Below, piece by piece: positions 2,408-31,956 of a stretch of 64,000 bases of DNA. Source of the DNA: a virus; the IMG/VR virus record IMGVR_UViG_3300023208_000003, positions 124,001 through 188,000 of that record; one strand, written 5' to 3'. The translations under genes were made by a program, and so were the position numbers. The notes beneath the pieces are model-generated. The model made no database searches. It saw only the letters and a program-made list of their open reading frames with translations, and was not told where the DNA came from. Each line of letters opens with the position of its first letter. Position 1 is the stretch's first letter.

Positions 2408-4318
2408 ATGGCTACACTCGTGAGTCCTGGAGTGTCAGTTCCAATAACTGATGAATCCTTCTATATCCCTGTTACCGCACCCACGGTGCCTTTATTTTTT
2501 ATTGCGACGCGCAAGAACAAGCGTCAGCCAAACGGCGTAGATATTGCAACTGCTACTAACGAAAGTTCTGTAGTTCGTACAGTTACTTCGCTTGGTCAGT
2601 CAACGCAGCTTTACGGCATTCCATACTTTTGGCAGGATGCCGGTAAGAATCAATTTCACGGCGACGCTCGCAATGAATATGGTTTGTTTGCGCTTAATCA
2701 ATTTCTTGGAGTTGGTAACCGTGCTTTCGTAGTTCGCTCAAACATTGATTTGTCTGACGCGACAACAAATTTTATCGGTATTACTAACACTAACGGCTCA
2801 CAGCCACCACTTGCCACTGTTCCTAATTTGATTGGAGCTGGCAATGGAACAATGACGACACCTACTGTAGCGAGCGCTTTAGTTCAGCCAGATAACTACA
2901 GTGTTGTTTGCATTACACCAGCAGTTTACGATATTAACAACGTAAAAACCAAAGCAGCTAAATTTAATGTCTTGAGCTCACGTGGTTTTATTGGTATTGC
3001 AACTGAAGGCACTGCTTTTAGCACTCCGTTGACTCCTGAAGTTGCTTTCACGATTACTGAAGGTACAACGCATTTTGCAGCAGGCGATTACTTTACGTTT
3101 TCAACTTACTATGTTCCATTGACTTCACCTTCAGGTGCTGGTAAAGGAACAATGTCTGATCTTCTTCCAGCTGAGCTAGCAGTTGAAGAAACTTGGACAA
3201 TTACATTTATCACTCCGACAACGTTTGATGTTTCAGGTTCTGTTTTTGGTCCATCTACTCCTGGTACAGTTGGTGTTCCATACGATAACAATTACATTAA
3301 TTTCATAGTTAATGACGGAACTACTCCGTTTGTTGTAGGTGACACGTTTACTGTTGTCTTTAAGAGCCTTTCACACTTTAATCCATTAGGTTCTACAGAT
3401 GCCCAGAAACGCGTTACCATCGCTACTGCGCTTCAAGCGGAAATTAACTCAAACACTGAAGTTCGTTCCGAAATGTATGAGTATAATTTGATTTTGGCTC
3501 CTGGCTATTCAGAAGTTGTTGATGAGCTTCTCGCGCTTTCAACCGCGGTTAATGATGAAGCTTTCGTAATTGCAGATACTCCAGTTGATAAGACACCTGA
3601 ACAGGTTGCGACTTGGGCAAATACTTCAGATCGTTTCAACAGTCACAATGCTGCATACTATTACCCTTGGGGTCTTGCTTCAAACTTGGATGGAACTGAT
3701 GTCGTGGTTGCTCCATCTGGCATTGCTCTTCGCACCTACGCATTCTCTGACAACGAGAGTTACGTGTGGTTCGCGCCAGCAGGTCCTAACCGTGGTCTTG
3801 TAACAGGCGTTTCAAAAGTTGGTTACGTTACTGGCGAGCTTGGTACTCCAACGACCTTTATTGAAGCAAACCTCAACCAAGGTCAACGTGATAACCTTTA
3901 CGAATTCTACAAGAATATCAACCCAATTGTGTACTTCACTGGCCGCGGAATGATGGTATTTGGACAGAAAACAGCAGCTCCTGTTGCTTCTGCACTTGAT
4001 CGCGTTAATGTTGTTCGCCTAGTTATGTACATTAAGCGCGGTATTCGTAAGGGTATGTTTGCCTTCTTGTTCGAACCTAACGATCAGATTACTCGTGATA
4101 ACGTTAAGAACGCAATTGATGGTTATCTTGGCGATATTATGATTAAGCGCGGTTTGTATGACTTCGCTACAATCTGCGATGCTTCAAACAACACTCCAAC
4201 TCGAATTGATCGCAATGAGCTTTGGGCTGATGTAGCATTGAAACCAGTAAAAGCGGTGGAATTTATTTACGTGCCAATTCGAATTCTTTCAACTGGCGCG
4301 GCGATGGGAAAAGCGTAA
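2408..4318 (+). CDS. gp18: Tail sheath protein (T4 gp18-like)
   Basis: 636-residue contractile sheath subunit. The N-terminus MATLVSPGVSVPITDESFY is the typical sheath opening. The C-terminal half carries the conserved sheath core: FVIADTP, the YYYPWG region, APSG, NPIVYFTGRGMMVFGQKT, RVNVVRLVMYIKRGIRKGM and FIYVPIRI. The middle (about residues 130-320) is the variable surface-exposed insertion, rich in Thr/Pro/Gly. It is close in length to T4 gp18 (659). It has its own late box and an AAGGAG ribosome-binding site 8 nt before the ATG, and a strong terminator follows. The codon pattern is more GC-rich and regular than in neighbouring ORFans, as expected for an abundant virion protein. Confidence 0.96.
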   Translation: MATLVSPGVSVPITDESFYIPVTAPTVPLFFIATRKNKRQPNGVDIATATNESSVVRTVTSLGQSTQLYGIPYFWQDAGKNQFHGDARNEYGLFALNQFLGVGNRAFVVRSNIDLSDATTNFIGITNTNGSQPPLATVPNLIGAGNGTMTTPTVASALVQPDNYSVVCITPAVYDINNVKTKAAKFNVLSSRGFIGIATEGTAFSTPLTPEVAFTITEGTTHFAAGDYFTFSTYYVPLTSPSGAGKGTMSDLLPAELAVEETWTITFITPTTFDVSGSVFGPSTPGTVGVPYDNNYINFIVNDGTTPFVVGDTFTVVFKSLSHFNPLGSTDAQKRVTIATALQAEINSNTEVRSEMYEYNLILAPGYSEVVDELLALSTAVNDEAFVIADTPVDKTPEQVATWANTSDRFNSHNAAYYYPWGLASNLDGTDVVVAPSGIALRTYAFSDNESYVWFAPAGPNRGLVTGVSKVGYVTGELGTPTTFIEANLNQGQRDNLYEFYKNINPIVYFTGRGMMVFGQKTAAPVASALDRVNVVRLVMYIKRGIRKGMFAFLFEPNDQITRDNVKNAIDGYLGDIMIKRGLYDFATICDASNNTPTRIDRNELWADVALKPVKAVEFIYVPIRILSTGAAMGKA

Positions 4319-24492: not shown

Positions 24493-25356
24493 ATGGCAAA
24501 CATATACATCAAAAGAGCTTTCGCAGAAAGTGAATATACGTACAATGAAGTTCTTGAACTCGAACGTTGTACAAATGATCCAATCTACTTCATAGAAAAA
24601 TACGTAAAGGTTCAGCACCCAACACGAGGACCTGTCCCATTTATTCTGTATGACTACCAGAGACACATGATCGATGTCATACATAACAATAAAGACTCGA
24701 TTATCTTGTGTTCCAGACAGCTTGGTAAGACCACGGTAGTAGCAATCTATCTACTTTGGTTAACCACATTTTTTGAGGACAAGCTTGCTATTATTGCATC
24801 AAAGGCAAACAGTCACGCGATTGAAATTATGTCTCGCATTAAGTTTGCTTATGAGGAACTTCCGCACTGGTTAAAAGCAGGTTGCAAATATTACAATCGT
24901 CACAGCATTGAATTTGATAACGGCTCAATCATAAAGTCAGAAGCAACAACTGAAAAAACAGGTCGAGGCAGTTCGCCATCAATTTTGTTCCTTGACGAAA
25001 TTGCATTTATTTCTCATAAAATTCAGGAAGAGCTTTGGGCGTCATTAACACCATCTCTTTCTACTGGTGGTAAATTTATTCTCACCTCAACACCAAACGG
25101 AGACTCTGATCTTTACGCGACTCTCTGGCGCGGCGCAATGGCTGGTACAAACAATTTTAAGCCGTTTAAAGCGCTATTTCACCAGCACCCTGAGCGTGGT
25201 CCAGAATCTGGTTACTATGAAGAAATGAAAGGTAAGCTTGGTGAGATTAAGACTCGACAGGAATTAGACTGTTGCATTGGTGAAACTGAAGTAACAGTTG
25301 AAAATAAAAATAAAATACAAAATATTTCAATAGAAAAATTATTTGAACTTTTATGA
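24493..25356 (+). CDS. gp17: Large terminase N-terminal fragment fused to a 28-residue N-intein
   Basis: 287 residues. Residues 1-259 are the ATPase half of the packaging motor: Walker A SRQLGKTT (74-81) and Walker B ILFLDE (164-169). From Cys260 (codon 25270) the last 28 residues are an intein N-half, CCIGETEV...IEKLFELL, matching the C-x-x-x-[D/E]-T-x-V block A. The fragment stops there. The rest of the terminase lies in the gene at 25931. It closely resembles the atypically split AceL-TerL intein, whose N-part is about 25 residues. Trans-splicing is expected to join ...RQELD to CEFLSSD... The stop overlaps the HNH start (ATGA). Confidence 0.9.
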   Translation: MANIYIKRAFAESEYTYNEVLELERCTNDPIYFIEKYVKVQHPTRGPVPFILYDYQRHMIDVIHNNKDSIILCSRQLGKTTVVAIYLLWLTTFFEDKLAIIASKANSHAIEIMSRIKFAYEELPHWLKAGCKYYNRHSIEFDNGSIIKSEATTEKTGRGSSPSILFLDEIAFISHKIQEELWASLTPSLSTGGKFILTSTPNGDSDLYATLWRGAMAGTNNFKPFKALFHQHPERGPESGYYEEMKGKLGEIKTRQELDCCIGETEVTVENKNKIQNISIEKLFELL

Positions 25357-25967
25357 CAAACATAAATCATAGACAAATTTGGCAAAATAATTTCGGTTCA
25401 ATACCAATTGATGAATATGGCAGAAGCTATGAAATTCATCATATAAATGGCAATCATTTTGATAATTCAATTGAAAATTTAAAATGCGTTTCAATTGATG
25501 AACATTTTCAAATTCATTTAAGTCAAGGAGATTTTGGTGCGTGTTTTTTAATTGCTCGCAGAATGGGATTATCATCTGAAGAATTAAGCAATTTGCAAAA
25601 AGGAAATAAATTATCTGAAATTACAAAAGCTAAAATTTCAATAGCGCATAAAAGGGGACATTTTGAAGGTAAAATTAAATCATGGAATGAAGGATTTAAA
25701 GGGTATAAATTGAAGCTAAAAATTCAACGAAAAGGAAAACGTTTTTCTTCAAAAATATCAGAAGAAGATGTTATCAAAATTAAAAATGATTTTATTGAAT
25801 GGAAAAAAACTCAGCCTAACAAATTACCATTTAAACTTTCACATGAAAAAGCTTTTGCACGTTTAATAAAACCAAAATTCCCGTTATTAAAAACAGACGT
25901 AACTATAGTTAATATTCTTAAAGGCAAATCATGGAAACCAGAGATTTTGAATATAAACCCAATTTAA
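25353..25967 (+). CDS. HNH endonuclease gene lodged in the terminase break
   Basis: 204 residues. The HNH core is YEIHHINGNHFDNSIENLKCVS (His29-His30, Asn/His following) and EHFQIHLSQ. A NUMOD3-like SEITKAKISIAHKRG stretch and a basic C-terminal DNA-binding region (DVIKIKNDFIEWKK...SHEKAFARLIKP) follow. It is placed exactly between the two intein halves, so it is probably the homing enzyme that spreads the split-intein locus. It overlaps the upstream stop by 4 nt and the downstream gene by 37 nt. Confidence 0.88.
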   Translation: MTNINHRQIWQNNFGSIPIDEYGRSYEIHHINGNHFDNSIENLKCVSIDEHFQIHLSQGDFGACFLIARRMGLSSEELSNLQKGNKLSEITKAKISIAHKRGHFEGKIKSWNEGFKGYKLKLKIQRKGKRFSSKISEEDVIKIKNDFIEWKKTQPNKLPFKLSHEKAFARLIKPKFPLLKTDVTIVNILKGKSWKPEILNINPI

Positions 25968-27028
25968 AAAAGTTAAAAATTAAAACCTTATTTGGAATGA
26001 AATCATTTGATGGAATAAGAAAAATACTTAAAAAAGGTTTAATTGAAATTCAGACACACCATTTTAATTTAAAATGTTCATTGACCCATAAAGTTTTAAC
26101 TGAACGAAATTGGATTTCTGCAGATGAATTACAGGTTGGTGAAAAAATTGAAACTATTAATGGTGAAGAAGAAATTATTTCAATTTCAATAGATCATGAA
26201 AAAGAAGAAACTTTTTATGATTTAGTAAATGTTGAAGGTGGAAATACATATCTAACCAATGGAATTGTTTCACATAATTGTGAGTTCTTATCATCTGATG
26301 CACTATTAATTAATACTTTGCGCCTTATTGAGTTAAAAGCTTCCCTACCAATCTCTGAAGAACTCGGATTTAAATACTGGAAACCGATTGGAGGTCGCGG
26401 AAAAGTTTATCTGATGAGCGTGGATATAGCAACCGGAAACGGTAATGATTTCTCAGTTATTGATGTGTTTGAATTTCCATCTCTTGAACAAGTGGTTCAA
26501 TGGCGCTCAAACGTTATGAACATTCCGATGCTTTACCAAGCAATAAAATACATGCTTTCAATGTTGACAAGACAAGATTCACACGGATTTAGACCTGATG
26601 TTTTTTGGACATTTGAACGTAATGGAGTTGGTGAAGCAATCAAAGCGCTCCTTTTCAATGATGAAAAACCAAATGAATTTGCTGAACTTGTAAGCGATAA
26701 GCCAGATGAAATGGGAATGAACACGTCTGGTAAGACAAAAATTCTTGCATGCCTTCACGTAAAGCAACTTGTTGAAAAACAAAAAGATGGATTAAAGCTA
26801 AATTCAGATAAAACAATTTTTGAGCTTCAAAATTTTGTTGCTTCTGGCGGTTCCTACGCAGCAAAGAAGGGAGCAACAGACGATACTGTTTCATCTCTTC
26901 TTTTGATATCTAGACTGTTAAAGCAAATCTGTATGTACGATGACCGCGCAATTGATATTCTTTACGATTATTCTAACCAATTTGATGACACACAAACAGA
27001 AGCACCTATGCCTATTTTAATCGTGTAA
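25931..27028 (+). CDS. gp17: C-intein fused to large terminase C-terminal nuclease fragment
   Basis: 365 residues. Residues 1-116 are the intein C-half: MKSFDGIRKI, a CSLTHKVL block-B-like TxxH segment, LQVGEKIE, FYDLVNVEGGNTYLTNGIVSHN ending in His-Asn. Cys117 (codon 26279) is the +1 nucleophile and the first terminase residue. Residues 117-365 are the terminase remainder with the nuclease motif YLMSVDIATGNGNDFSVIDV, FERNGVGEAIKALL and the TKILACLH region. Combined spliced product: 259 + 249 = 508 residues. AAAGG lies about 8 nt before ATG 25931 and fixes the start. Confidence 0.9.
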   Translation: METRDFEYKPNLKKLKIKTLFGMKSFDGIRKILKKGLIEIQTHHFNLKCSLTHKVLTERNWISADELQVGEKIETINGEEEIISISIDHEKEETFYDLVNVEGGNTYLTNGIVSHNCEFLSSDALLINTLRLIELKASLPISEELGFKYWKPIGGRGKVYLMSVDIATGNGNDFSVIDVFEFPSLEQVVQWRSNVMNIPMLYQAIKYMLSMLTRQDSHGFRPDVFWTFERNGVGEAIKALLFNDEKPNEFAELVSDKPDEMGMNTSGKTKILACLHVKQLVEKQKDGLKLNSDKTIFELQNFVASGGSYAAKKGATDDTVSSLLLISRLLKQICMYDDRAIDILYDYSNQFDDTQTEAPMPILIV

Positions 27029-27076: not shown

Positions 27077-27844
27077 ATGTTACGCGTAAAAACTTGTTGG
27101 ATTTCAGATCTTCATCTTGGTAGTACTCAGTGTCAAGCTGATAAACTCCTTGAGTTTCTTAAAGTGCTTGATGCTCAAAAGCTTTACTTAGTCGGTGATA
27201 TTATTGATTTTTGGGCTCTTTCAAGAAAATCATTTTGGCCAACTGATCACAATACAGTGGTTCAAAAAATACTTCGAATGGCGCGGCATGGTGTTGAAGT
27301 CATTTATATTCCAGGTAATCATGACTCTCCAGTACGTGATTTAGCTGATATGACATTTGGAAATGTACAAGTTAAGCTAGAAGATATTCATGAGCTAAAA
27401 AATGGTAAAAAGTTTTTAGTTACTCATGGCGACCAATTTGATACAATATCAAAGCATTATGGTTGGCTTTCAAAATTCGGCGCCATAGGCTATGACATTT
27501 TGCTTCAGCTAAATCGTTTTACACGATTAATTCAAAAGCTTTTTAACATTGAATCTCACTTTTCACTGTCTTCATTTATAAAGTACAAAGTTAAGAACAT
27601 TGTAAAATTTATAAGTGATTATGAGAATGAAATTTGTGAAATTTTAAAGAATGAAGAACTAGATGGAATAATTTGCGGGCATATTCATCATCCTGAGCTA
27701 ATAAAAAATAATGATTTCATTTACTTGAACTGCGGTGATTGGGTAGAAAGCTTAACAGCAATTATTGAAACTTATGAAAATGAATTAATTTTAATTAAAA
27801 AAATTGAAAATGACATTATTGAAATTAAAAAATTATCCATCTAA
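27077..27844 (+). CDS. PlcP/LpxH-type metallophosphoesterase (probable phospholipid remodelling)
   Basis: 255 residues. All calcineurin-fold motifs are present: SDLHLG (Asp11, His13), GDIID (40-44), GNHD (80-83), THGD (His117) and GHIHH (201-205), plus LNCGDWVES (217-225), typical of the PlcP / UDP-diacylglucosamine-hydrolase-like group. PlcP of Sinorhizobium and marine bacteria removes phosphate head groups from phospholipids under phosphorus starvation, and a glycosyltransferase is encoded next to it. Here too a glycosyltransferase gene follows, with an endonuclease gene between. LpxH activity in lipid A synthesis is the alternative. GAGG precedes the ATG. Confidence 0.8.
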   Translation: MLRVKTCWISDLHLGSTQCQADKLLEFLKVLDAQKLYLVGDIIDFWALSRKSFWPTDHNTVVQKILRMARHGVEVIYIPGNHDSPVRDLADMTFGNVQVKLEDIHELKNGKKFLVTHGDQFDTISKHYGWLSKFGAIGYDILLQLNRFTRLIQKLFNIESHFSLSSFIKYKVKNIVKFISDYENEICEILKNEELDGIICGHIHHPELIKNNDFIYLNCGDWVESLTAIIETYENELILIKKIENDIIEIKKLSI

Positions 27845-28769
27845 ATAAAAATCCAAGATTTTTAGTGGCCGTTTCTTTTAAAAATGATATTTTTTGATCA
27901 ATTTTAAACGTATATTGACTTTTTACTTCAATAATAGTATTAATTTTTGGAATAAAAAAGTCAGGATAATATCGCTTAATTTTGTTATCATATTCATAGA
28001 TAATTTTGGGCATATCTTTTTTAGAAAAAAGAATTTCTTCTTCATTAAATCCTTCATCTAATAACAAAGAAAATGCCTTTGGCTCAAATCCTTGTAATAA
28101 AATTACTTTACCGGATGGTAAAGTAAATTCATGTTTCTTTTTAAATCTGTTATTACAACAAATTTCTGCTACTGATGGAATATGTGCTGGATAAAATACA
28201 TCATATTTTTCATTTAAAACTTGTTGTAAATAATTTTGATCAAAATTATGTGGACGTTTATATTTTTGCATCATTGTTTGAGCTTTTTTAAATTTTATGC
28301 TGTCTAATTTACTAATATTATCCACTCCATATCTTTTAATTAAGGTAAATTTACATTTTTGTTTAACATCTTTACGTTGAAAGACATTAGTAATTCCATA
28401 TTTTTCTAAAAGACTTTTTTCTAAATTTTGCTTTATAAGCTGTTTTCCTTCATTGCTTGATGCTTCTCTTTTAGAATGAAATAATGCATATCCATATTGT
28501 AATCCAGGAAAATCAATTTCCCGTCGAGTTGCCGGGCCACGCCGCCACATACATTCAAGTCCGCTAATTGGACATATTGGAACATTTACGTGACCTAATA
28601 ACAAGTGATATATTTTACGTTGAAAATTCCATTCATTTGGAATTTTCAACGTTTTAAAAGCATTTTCGATTTCAAAAAACCAACTTTCTTTTTGAATAAA
28701 AAATAGATTTCTTCGTTTTCTTTTTGGATTTGATAAATATTCAAGAATTTTACTTTGTATAATAATCAT
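27825..28769 (-). CDS. Putative homing endonuclease with PD-(D/E)xK-like site
   Basis: 314 residues on the opposite strand between two co-oriented metabolic genes. The N-terminus has a helical region and CPISGLECMW. Repeated LxxKYGxxNVxxxxxVKxK motifs (KYGITNVFQRKDVKQK, RYGVDNISKLDSIKFK) are common in phage endonucleases. The C-terminus has RYYPDFFIPKINTIIEVKSQYTF, a PD...E-x-K nuclease signature. Its 3' end overlaps the phosphoesterase by 20 nt. It has its own GGAG site (minus strand) and a late box at 28800-28807. Confidence 0.75.
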   Translation of the reverse strand: MIIIQSKILEYLSNPKRKRRNLFFIQKESWFFEIENAFKTLKIPNEWNFQRKIYHLLLGHVNVPICPISGLECMWRRGPATRREIDFPGLQYGYALFHSKREASSNEGKQLIKQNLEKSLLEKYGITNVFQRKDVKQKCKFTLIKRYGVDNISKLDSIKFKKAQTMMQKYKRPHNFDQNYLQQVLNEKYDVFYPAHIPSVAEICCNNRFKKKHEFTLPSGKVILLQGFEPKAFSLLLDEGFNEEEILFSKKDMPKIIYEYDNKIKRYYPDFFIPKINTIIEVKSQYTFKIDQKISFLKETATKNLGFLFRWIIF

Positions 28770-28799
28770 GTTAATATCTCCACTATTAGCATAATAAAC

Positions 28800-28807
28800 T
28801 ATTTATA
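28800..28807 (-). promoter_or_regulatory. Minus-strand late promoter (TATAAATA) for the endonuclease
   Basis: A perfect TATAAATA on the minus strand, 30 nt upstream of the minus-strand ATG at 28769, with GGAG between. It overlaps the leader of the plus-strand glycosyltransferase. Confidence 0.6.
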
Positions 28808-28817
28808 GGAAAAAATA

Positions 28818-29852
28818 ATGACAAAATTGCTAATTGTAACTGATGCGTTTAGACCTCAAGTATCAGGCGTAGTTCGTACACTTGAAAAAACTATTGATGG
28901 GCTTTCTGCTCATTTTAATATTACAGTAATTCATCCAGAGATGTTTAAAACATTTCCTTGCCCAACTTATCCTGAAATTAAGTTAGCTTGGCCTGGAATG
29001 AAACGATTAGCAACACGAATAAAGCACGCAAAACCAGATTTTATTCACATTGCAACTGAAGGTCCTTTAGGGCTTTTAGCCCGCTGTTACTGCGTTAAAA
29101 ATAATCTCAGATTTACAACCGCATATCATACAAAGTTTCCTGAATATATTGAAAATAAGTTAAGTGTTCCTGCCAGCTTAACTTACAAATACTTCAAATG
29201 GTTTCATAAACCTGCTTCTCGCGTCTTTGTCGCAACAGAATCACTTGAAAATGAATTGAAAGCTCGAGGCTTTCAAAACCAATTTTGGCGCTGGTCTCGT
29301 GGTGTCGATATTGATCTTTTTAATCCTTCACGCGATTATAAAAAAGGACCACCGTTTGCTCTTTATGTAGGTCGAGTTTCAAGTGAAAAAAATATTGAAG
29401 CTTTTTTAAATGCAAAAACAGCATTTTTAAAAATAGTTGTCGGTGATGGCCCGCAACTTGAACAGTATAAAAAGCAATATAAATGTGATAGTATAATATT
29501 TGTTGGAGCTAAGCATTCAACAGACTTAGCTAATTTTTATGCTTCTGCTAAGGTAGTAGTTTTTCCATCAAAAACTGATACGTTTGGTTTGGTAACTCTT
29601 GAGGCTTTAGCAAGCGGAACGCCAGTGGTTGCGTTTAACGTGCCTGGTCCTGGTGATGTATTGCCAGCATACTTAAAGGGGTATCTATCAAACGTAGGAA
29701 CTCTTGTAGAAAGCGATAATGAAATAGGAGCCGCAATTAATTATTATTGTGAATATTATAAAAATGAAGTTCCTCGTCAGTATGTGCTTGACAATTTTAC
29801 GTGGGAAATAGCTACTCAGCAATTTAAAGATGGTTTAGTTTTGATGAAATGA
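28818..29852 (+). CDS. GT4-family glycosyltransferase (Agt-like)
   Basis: 344 residues, GT-B fold. N-terminal domain: LLIVTDAFRPQVSGVVRTLEKTI, HPEMFKTFPCPTYPEIKLAW, HIATEGPLGLLAR, TTAYHTKFPEY. C-terminal nucleotide-sugar domain: ALYVGRVSSEKN, VVGDGPQL and PSKTDTFGLVTLEALASGTPVVAF with the E-x7-E-type acidic pair. The sequence type matches proteobacterial glycosyltransferases encoded beside plcP-like genes that glycosylate diacylglycerol to replace phospholipids. Inferred partner: the phosphoesterase upstream. Its stop overlaps the start of the next frame (ATGA at 29849). Confidence 0.83.
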   Translation: MTKLLIVTDAFRPQVSGVVRTLEKTIDGLSAHFNITVIHPEMFKTFPCPTYPEIKLAWPGMKRLATRIKHAKPDFIHIATEGPLGLLARCYCVKNNLRFTTAYHTKFPEYIENKLSVPASLTYKYFKWFHKPASRVFVATESLENELKARGFQNQFWRWSRGVDIDLFNPSRDYKKGPPFALYVGRVSSEKNIEAFLNAKTAFLKIVVGDGPQLEQYKKQYKCDSIIFVGAKHSTDLANFYASAKVVVFPSKTDTFGLVTLEALASGTPVVAFNVPGPGDVLPAYLKGYLSNVGTLVESDNEIGAAINYYCEYYKNEVPRQYVLDNFTWEIATQQFKDGLVLMK

Positions 29853-29875
29853 ATGATAAAAAAGAGGTTATTAAG

Positions 29876-30430
29876 ATGCTTAAATTTTTGATGATGTTAT
29901 TTCTTTCAAATCTTGCTTTTGCCAGTAGTCCTAATGTTTCAACCGCTACGTATGATATCCCTGAGTTAATGATTTTTCGTGACGATGGCGTAAAGATAAA
30001 TATCAAAGATGAAACAATGGGGTACAAACCCATTGCCATCAATTTTGTTTTTACCACGTGCGCTGGCATTTGTCCTGCGTTAAGCCGCACGTTTGTAGCA
30101 GTTCAGAAGCAATTAGGCGAGGACGCTTCGAAAGTTCATCTCATTTCATTTTCAATTGACCCTGAAAATGACACTGTTAGCGTCTTACAGGAACATATGA
30201 AAAAATTAAAGACGCAACCAGGTTGGAATTTTTACACTGGAACCTTTGATCAAATTATTCAAATTGAAAAAGCATTTCACGCTTATTTTGGTGATAAAAT
30301 GAATCACCAGCCGTTAACCATTATTCATCGACCTGGTGAAAGTACTTGGACTCGTATTGATGGTTTCGCCACAGCCAATCAAATTGTGTCAGAGTTGAGA
30401 AAAAACGATGAAGTTGTTACCATAAAATAA
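29876..30430 (+). CDS. Sco1/SenC-family copper/thioredoxin-like protein, exported
   Basis: 184 residues from ATG 29876; a start at 29849 is possible, but 29876 has AAGAGG 8 nt upstream and gives a clean signal peptide (MLKFLMMLFLSNLAFA, cleaved near residue 16). Thioredoxin fold with the Sco copper motif FTTCAGICPALS (Cys62, Cys66) and the distal copper His144 in NHQPLTII. SFSIDPENDT and WNFYTG also match Sco proteins. Family role: copper delivery to CuA of cytochrome c oxidase, or thiol redox in the periplasm. It is the last gene of the auxiliary metabolic cluster. Unusual cargo for a phage. Confidence 0.85.
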   Translation: MLKFLMMLFLSNLAFASSPNVSTATYDIPELMIFRDDGVKINIKDETMGYKPIAINFVFTTCAGICPALSRTFVAVQKQLGEDASKVHLISFSIDPENDTVSVLQEHMKKLKTQPGWNFYTGTFDQIIQIEKAFHAYFGDKMNHQPLTIIHRPGESTWTRIDGFATANQIVSELRKNDEVVTIK

Positions 30431-30503: not shown

Positions 30504-30788
30504 ATGAACACTGATATGGCTGGGCCTGACGCTAGAATTGAAATCATTGACGACATTTCACTTACTCTGAGACTTCGTCATGATTTCATTTATGAAAGTC
30601 GTTTTACGCCTACTTCAGTTCACTTAGACGTTTGTAGAAATAACCAAACGGTAACACTCTATTTACAACTTATGCCTAATTATGAAATTTTAATTTCATT
30701 TGAAGGCATTTTTTACCAAACCGTTACAACAGATGAAGCGCTTTCGTTAATTGAAATGTTGATTGAGGAACATAATGGAACTTTTTAA
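30504..30788 (+). CDS. Small protein of unknown function, possibly leaderless
   Basis: 94 residues from ATG 30504 (MNTDMAGPDARIEIIDD); a TTG at 30486 would lie inside the -10 region and is rejected. No ribosome-binding site is present before ATG 30504 or ATG 30516. The chain is beta-rich with an acidic helical end. The last 14 nt overlap the HD/kinase gene. Confidence 0.6.
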   Translation: MNTDMAGPDARIEIIDDISLTLRLRHDFIYESRFTPTSVHLDVCRNNQTVTLYLQLMPNYEILISFEGIFYQTVTTDEALSLIEMLIEEHNGTF

Positions 30789-31956
30789 CAAGCTCTACAT
30801 TGCTCTCACCTCGAGCTCAATTGCGCATAACATGCGTTCTATTCGTGAAAACAGCCCGTATCATCGTGAGGAAAATGTGTGGAAGCACACGTTGATGACA
30901 CTTGACTCATACTGCGTAAACATTGGGCCGCACCGCACCCAACGGATGGAGCTTATCACGATGACAGCTCTGCTTTTTCATGATGCTGGAAAGCCGCTGT
31001 CACGTCAAGAAAAGTACAGTGACAGCCGTGGCAACTATCAAACTTTTGGTGGTCATGAACCTGTTTCAGCTCGAGTGTTTGAAGATTTCATGATGACAAA
31101 CCCCGAACTTATGGCTGAACTTCGCTTTGACAGCAATGAGTGGCGTTTGATTAAGTGGTTGATTGAAAATCATCTTCCGTACGACATTAAGGATAACCAA
31201 AAGTGTCGCGCTTTGATAACTGATTGTCATTCACACGGTCTGGGAGCGTTGCAAATGTTCTTAGATGTTTTGCGCTCTGACGCAAGAGGCCGCATCTCTG
31301 ATGATCATGAAGCGAAGCTCTCAAAGGTCGAGCAATGGATTGCCGAGTTTGTTACTTTGGAACCTTTGTCTTACAGAATAGTTGAGCAACCGCAGCCGGC
31401 AAATCATAAGATTGCTACATTTTTGATTGGTCCTTCTGGTGCTGGTAAGTCCACGTATGCCCGTCAATTGGCTACTAATGCCAAGATTTTTTCACTCGAT
31501 GAGCTTCGCTTGGAGTTTTACTTTACGTCAGGTTTTAAGACATCAAATAATTCTAAGCGTGATTACGCACTCGCTTGGAAGTATTGCACAATGGAAAAGT
31601 CAAAAGAATTTGACCAGTTTTGGAGAGCTCGTTTTATTGGATTAATGAACGCTGGTCACGATTTGGTTATTGACAACGTGAACTCGACCAGAAAGTCTCG
31701 CGCGTTCTATGTTGCAGAGCTTCGCAAGCGCAATTATTTCATTGTTTCAATGGAATTTCCGATTGCGCTTTCTACGGTAATTGAGCGTCAATTGTTGCGT
31801 GATGATAAGGAAGTACCAGTTGAGAGTGTAACGCAGCAATACTACGCTATTAGTCAGCCGCGAGTTGGAAGCGAGGTTGATGAAGCGTACGTAATATTTG
31901 ATGGAAACTTTCAAAAATCTGCTGCTAAGCACTACAAAGTAGTGTACAACAGCTGA
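30775..31956 (+). CDS. HD-domain phosphohydrolase fused to P-loop polynucleotide-kinase-like domain
   Basis: 393 residues from ATG 30775, chosen over TTG 30763 because GAGG lies 7 nt before it. The N-terminal HD domain has NVWKHTLMTLDSY, TALLFHDAGKP and IENHLPYD metal-binding motifs. The C-terminal kinase domain has Walker A GPSGAGKS (219-226), SLDELRLEF, LVIDNVNSTRKSR and ERQLLRDDKEVP, like T4 Pnkp/AAA_33 kinases. Such HD-kinase fusions are expected to act on nucleic-acid ends or nucleotides; here it may pair with the RNA ligase and 2H enzymes at 57-59 kb. Base usage is more GC-rich than nearby ORFans. Confidence 0.8.
   Translation: MELFNKLYIALTSSSIAHNMRSIRENSPYHREENVWKHTLMTLDSYCVNIGPHRTQRMELITMTALLFHDAGKPLSRQEKYSDSRGNYQTFGGHEPVSARVFEDFMMTNPELMAELRFDSNEWRLIKWLIENHLPYDIKDNQKCRALITDCHSHGLGALQMFLDVLRSDARGRISDDHEAKLSKVEQWIAEFVTLEPLSYRIVEQPQPANHKIATFLIGPSGAGKSTYARQLATNAKIFSLDELRLEFYFTSGFKTSNNSKRDYALAWKYCTMEKSKEFDQFWRARFIGLMNAGHDLVIDNVNSTRKSRAFYVAELRKRNYFIVSMEFPIALSTVIERQLLRDDKEVPVESVTQQYYAISQPRVGSEVDEAYVIFDGNFQKSAAKHYKVVYNS

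Follow-up and report, generated by a model that had tools for sequence, protein, structure and literature searches.

The closest described systems are the lipid renovation pathways in which a PlcP phosphoesterase acts with an Agt glycosyltransferase, as in Pseudomonas aeruginosa (PA3219-PA3218), Pelagibacter HTCC7211 and Methylosinus trichosporium OB3b, with the PlcP of Sinorhizobium meliloti as a further reference. The chemistry of PlcP and Agt is established for these bacterial homologues (PMC8528852, PMC4796936, PMC9239053): PA3219 and PA3218 were shown by genetics to act in glycolipid synthesis, the purified Agt1 is active on diacylglycerol (PMC8528852), and the plcP-agt pathway is also established in methanotrophs (PMC9239053). 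Here we describe a plcP-agt pair of viral origin, found in a stretch of 64,000 nucleotides (the window) that corresponds to bases 124001-188000 of the 197,099-bp IMG/VR record IMGVR_UViG_3300023208_000003. We propose, with a probability of about 0.77, that the locus is a phage-borne plcP-agt module for membrane-lipid remodelling that yields phosphate. The two genes are:

27077..27844, + strand: plcP-like gene, 255-residue calcineurin-like metallophosphoesterase, predicted phospholipase C on membrane phospholipids
28818..29852, + strand: agt-like gene, 344-residue glycosyltransferase of family GT4 (GT-B fold), predicted diacylglycerol glycosyltransferase

The phage pair shares with the bacterial pathway the two protein families, the gene order and the catalytic motifs, at identities of ~40-62% for PlcP and 41-48% for Agt. 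Unlike the bacterial pairs, it is encoded by a T4-superfamily phage, has no Pho box, is split by a homing endonuclease gene and is coupled to a SCO1-like gene, and its PlcP and Agt are nearest to different lineages. The source record is a bona fide T4-superfamily phage, which encodes the hallmark proteins Gp23, gp20/Portal_T4, gp32, tail sheath and tube and NrdA/NrdB, together with a UvsX-like recombinase, a family B polymerase and PhoH. Inside this genome, plcP and agt are host-type metabolic genes, i.e. phage auxiliary metabolic genes.

The phosphoesterase matched the Pfam family Metallophos (6.6e-12) and the glycosyltransferase the families Glycos_transf_1 (6.7e-23) and Glyco_transf_4 (2.5e-15), both enzyme family assignments being far beyond chance. 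The metal-ligand residues of the phage PlcP (D11, H13, D41, N81, H82, H117, H202 and H204) are invariant among 30 relatives, and the AlphaFold model has a predicted local distance difference test score (pLDDT) of 85 and a predicted template modelling score (pTM) of 0.80. The initial annotation, made from the sequence alone, had placed a PlcP-like phosphoesterase and an Agt-like glycosyltransferase at 27077-29852 on the basis of an NCGDWVES signature and of the gene pairing, and had stated that both proteins keep their catalytic motifs. Both genes were confirmed, as was the signature, which begins at residue 218 and has the N-x-GDWVE form of PlcP near the C-terminus, and the second statement holds for the PlcP metal ligands and for the Agt motifs described below. 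It had also left an LpxH-type activity possible, in which case the protein would be an LpxH-like UDP-2,3-diacylglucosamine pyrophosphatase and the pair would modify lipid A or lipopolysaccharide. The annotation of many homologues as UDP-2,3-diacylglucosamine diphosphatase and the nearest solved structures, which are LpxH, speak for this identity; the profile score, the tree placement and the sequence motif all disfavour it. With the LpxH model TIGR01854 (NCBIfam), the window protein scored 50.2 bits against a cut-off of 190.35. Among 12 searchable host-type genomes with a PlcP homologue, 11 also encode a true LpxH, retained beside the PlcP homologue, and in these 11 genomes the same model gave 236-343 bits for the true LpxH and 30-46 for the PlcP paralogues.

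In the phylogeny against LpxH, which the initial annotation had proposed as a check, LpxH formed a single clade (100/100) with the window protein outside it, in a tree of 70 proteins whose bootstrap was not fully settled (correlation 0.97). The sister group of the window protein (100/100) comprised seven PlcP: one from an uncultured proteobacterium and six whose titles name Methylococcales or Methylococcus. An approximately unbiased (AU) test with the LpxH side gave p 0.13, a test which asks only whether the outgroup could attach beside the window protein and which does not put this protein within LpxH. The motif GNH[DE] was present in 117/117 PlcP-type sequences, including the window protein (GNHD, residues 80-83), and in 0/11 LpxH, 10 of which carry GNRDF instead. 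From these sequence comparisons, we assign the phosphoesterase to the PlcP type and not to LpxH, and consider an LpxH-like enzyme very improbable. The closest relatives of the phage PlcP are the Methylococcales PlcP, at 55-62% identity, and joining it to the largest of the remaining viral PlcP clades was rejected (AU p 0.0006). The identity is 44% to the P. aeruginosa PlcP that matches PA3219 by its arrangement and 40% to the S. meliloti PlcP homologue; these two bacterial proteins are 46.6% identical to each other, the published value for PA3219 and the S. meliloti PlcP being 46% (PMC8528852).

The glycosyltransferase is, by sequence, an Agt homologue. It is ~41-48% identical to the bacterial Agt adjoining plcP, with 41% to the P. 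aeruginosa PA3218-type Agt1, 42-46% to alphaproteobacterial- and Pseudomonas-type GT4 proteins, three of them encoded beside plcP, and 38-52% to the Methylococcales Agt. The motifs TDTFG and EK(N), common to bacterial Agt, are conserved in the phage protein, whose model (pLDDT 91) matches the nucleotide-sugar GT-B enzymes PimB', BshA and MshA. The initial call of an Agt-like enzyme is thus upheld by the gene neighbourhood and by homology to experimentally characterised pairs. In a larger Agt tree, 22 Methylococcales Agt formed a single clade (support of 96 in the SH-like approximate likelihood ratio test, SH-aLRT), and the window protein grouped with three viral Agt (95) outside this clade. 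Constraining it with the Methylococcales was ~18.5 log units worse, yet was not rejected (p 0.17-0.19). The phage Agt therefore probably belongs to a phage lineage. Because PlcP is nearest to Methylococcales and Agt to other phages, plcP and agt probably have different recent histories, and the pair would be a mosaic, not a unit taken over intact from a host.

The arrangement of the two genes was then compared across viral genomes. Profile scans of IMG/VR gave at least 574 and at least 581 confirmed relatives of the two proteins, redundant contigs included. Among the best 80 viral Agt loci, which were chosen by similarity to the window Agt and are hence a non-random sample, plcP was present in the flank of 74 and lay at 200 bp or less in 63. 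After removal of near-copies, plcP accompanied agt in 48/51 viral loci, all on the same strand and always in the order plcP then agt, and the two genes are directly adjacent in most viral relatives. When 50 of these contigs were checked for phage genes, a terminase was found in 17, Gp23 in 15 and at least one of the two in 19; many of the remaining contigs are short fragments, whose viral status rests on IMG/VR. The gene pairing on which the initial annotation relied is a recurrent order in phages. In the window, an opposite-strand homing endonuclease gene splits the pair; this insert and the SCO1-like gene coupled to agt had been missed in that annotation.

This arrangement bears also on another explanation of the glycosyltransferase, namely that the GT4 enzyme targets something else, such as a capsule, virion or DNA sugar, and that its pairing with plcP is incidental. 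The GT4 family is broad, the closest folds are PimB', BshA and MshA, and plcP and agt seem to differ in history, all of which would fit such a role; the conserved adjacency and order, the 42-46% identity to Agt of the bacterial plcP-agt type, the shared TDTFG and EK(N) motifs and the Pfam assignment to GT4, apart from the T4 DNA glucosyltransferases, make it improbable.

Some observations on the databases concern the same pair. A chromosomal-type plcP-agt copy is carried by the P. aeruginosa plasmids NZ_CP137508.1 (L013), NZ_CP042268.1 and CP075839.1. Two phage-labelled records, L010 (MT836169.1) and L011 (CAKLQH020000017.1), are probably bacterial contigs and were left out of the phage counts; they carry bacterial-looking genes (TyrRS, polyphosphate kinase and Ppx; gcpE and hisS). 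Since bacterial pieces can be labelled as phage, numbers of phage PlcP and Agt taken from databases should be read with caution.

The insert between the two genes and the gene that follows agt are:

27825..28769, - strand: DUF7487 homing-endonuclease-like gene, located in the plcP-agt interval and in convergent orientation to plcP
29849..30430, + strand: SCO1/SenC-like gene; the product has a CAGIC sequence of the CxxxC type and a hydrophobic, signal-peptide-like N-terminus

The agt gene lies downstream of plcP on the same strand, separated from it by a 973-bp insert with the homing endonuclease, which overlaps plcP by 20 bp. The locus is repeated in two further viral contigs. Between the window and a second contig from this phage type (L003), divergence is ~16% upstream of position 27358, which lies within plcP, and falls there sharply to almost none over the next 10 kb. 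In the diverged part of plcP, its first 282 nt, 27 differences are synonymous and 4 nonsynonymous, i.e. a ratio of nonsynonymous to synonymous rates (dN/dS) of ~0.03. This one comparison, in which an assembly chimera is possible, argues for strong purifying selection on the first third of plcP, and the low dN/dS argues for a working protein. The breakpoint is 467 bp from the homing endonuclease, a position which would fit a co-conversion tract. Other homing-endonuclease-like genes, one of the HNH type and another resembling LAGLIDADG, fill the same gap in other phages (L155, 6714-7421; L209, 2183-3148), which suggests that it is a recurrent insertion spot. The gap can also hold a RimK-like ATP-grasp gene of ~295 residues (L207, L212, L217, L229, L240, L249 and L257), and the present phage encodes, at other sites, RimK and a protein of the ATP-dependent zinc protease family. 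In L176, a PAP2-like phosphatase gene (3583-4116) lies between plcP and agt and is compatible with further lipid-phosphate handling.

We infer that the host is likely a methanotroph of the Methylococcales. The lineage-A PlcP of Methylomonas and Methylococcaceae, which are nearest in sequence to the phage protein, were carried by 40 of 121 Methylococcales genomes. In contrast to the phage pair, none of these 40 genomes has a co-oriented agt directly beside plcP, and an Agt match at E<=1e-30 was absent in 25/40, a count which incomplete genomes may inflate. This agrees with the report of type Ia methanotrophs without agt beside plcP (PMC9239053). The window PlcP is sister to the host clade and not inside it, so that transfer between phage and host may have run in either direction.

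In the proposed mechanism, the phage PlcP would, during infection, split host phospholipids by hydrolysis into diacylglycerol and a phosphorylated head group. Agt would then cap diacylglycerol with the sugar of a UDP-sugar (glucose or glucuronate), and the resulting phosphorus-free glycolipid would preserve membrane integrity, while the freed phosphorylated head groups would supply nucleotide synthesis via host phosphatases. By arithmetic, one copy of the 197-kb genome needs ~394,000 phosphates, and a bacterial membrane contains on the order of ten million phospholipids. Since these phospholipids suffice for tens of phage genomes, the phosphate benefit is arithmetically plausible.

The regulation of the phage genes appears to differ from that of the bacterial ones. 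Pho boxes were found upstream of bacterial plcP in 13/79 cases, compared to a background of 1.7% in random segments. The Methylomonas plcP relatives, unlike the phage gene, have upstream Pho-box matches of 13-14 of 14, in agreement with the initial suggestion that the host homologues be searched for such boxes. Pho-box-like matches on the minus strand of viral upstream regions were confined to related sequences and were dropped after a strand-specific control. Several points weigh against a phosphate-yielding module. Viral plcP upstream regions contained a Pho box in 2/147, not above background, and none was found upstream of the window plcP (best match, 9/14), so that the link to phosphorus starvation is not a regulatory one. 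PstS was not found in this phage record. The fold comparison of the phosphoesterase ranked LpxH first, PlcP structures being absent among the matches listed. Finally, enzymatic activity, sugar donor and phosphate benefit are deduced from predicted enzymes, and the sequence fixes neither the lipid substrate nor the sugar donor. Because viral copies have no Pho box, the expression of phage plcP is probably set by the infection programme and not by the host starvation signal. Within the window, the T4 late-promoter motif TATAAATA occurred no more often than by chance, and sigma-70-like sites were no more frequent than in shuffles.

A gene pair that acts whatever the phosphorus status, as expected of copies without Pho boxes, might serve another purpose: the enzymes would remodel lipids, the benefit being an altered envelope (superinfection block, membrane charge or resistance to lysis agents) and not phosphate. 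Glycolipids alter polymyxin susceptibility (PMC8528852), lipid changes have been argued to affect phage binding (PMC9804370, PMC9938194), and the failure to find PstS in this record points the same way. Other phages, in contrast, have pstS beside plcP or plcP-agt: in pelagiphage Mosig, plcP adjoins an annotated phosphate ABC transporter gene (pstS), and in two viral contigs PstS is encoded ~1.5 and ~0.9 kb downstream of plcP-agt. Moreover, plcP provides the head-group-cleaving step, and a glycolipid coat alone would require only Agt. An envelope benefit is thus rather unlikely, although it deserves serious weight, and we retain phosphate release as the preferred reading.

On this reading, the pair resembles the phage phosphate genes pstS, phoA and phoH in being host-derived and thought to raise phosphate during infection, but those genes import or mobilise phosphate and the pair would reuse phosphorus from the membrane itself. 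The pmoC-carrying phages of freshwater methanotrophs (159-527 kb; PMC7674155) are similar in genome size and probable host guild. Unlike them, the present record gave no pmoC-type match, a weak negative as control genomes gave no match either. The main text on those phages has nothing on lipids, phosphoesterase or glycosyltransferase (PMC7674155), the announcement of pelagiphage Mosig does not mention plcP, and searches of the open-access literature found plcP or plcP-agt described in no phage. The novelty of the phage pair is provisional, because the search was confined to open-access papers, subscription papers and preprints lying outside it. In existing virome surveys plcP is probably hidden, because it is usually annotated as LpxH; the gene list of a Lake Baikal virome contains a single lpxH.

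The supply of phosphorus is often what limits phage DNA synthesis in lakes and oceans. The phosphate genes known from phages serve import or stress sensing, so recycling of membrane phosphorus would, if true, be a different route. We suggest tentatively that phages, chiefly large T4-like ones known from environmental metagenomes, commonly carry an unreported, phage-timed module that exchanges lipid for phosphorus, with the host membrane as phosphate reserve, and that in Agt-less methanotrophs the phage supplies the glycosylation and hence a new lipid. Infected cells would then be rich in glycolipids, which would affect lipid biomarkers of environmental phosphorus stress, and in methanotrophs the module would involve the intracytoplasmic membranes, the site of methane monooxygenase. 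Viruses may in this way mine cell membranes for phosphorus.

The start codon of the SCO1-like gene lies within a 4-bp ATGA overlap with the end of agt, and because of this overlap the two genes are probably on one transcript. In IMG/VR, the SCO1-like gene, of the copper-chaperone kind, was seen in this phage type only (L306, L307), and its product is ~40% identical to homologues from Cupriavidus and Methylococcales; in view of the particulate methane monooxygenase (pMMO) of methanotrophs, it is tempting to suspect a role with copper. Immediately upstream of the plcP-agt pair lies terL (24493-27028), apparently split by an intein; the open reading frame (ORF) of the HNH endonuclease that this intein carries is at 25353-25967, and its C-terminal splice motif is in the ORF 25931-27028. 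Further downstream, the gene at 30763-31956 encodes an HD domain fused to a polynucleotide-kinase-like P-loop domain (phrog_6931).
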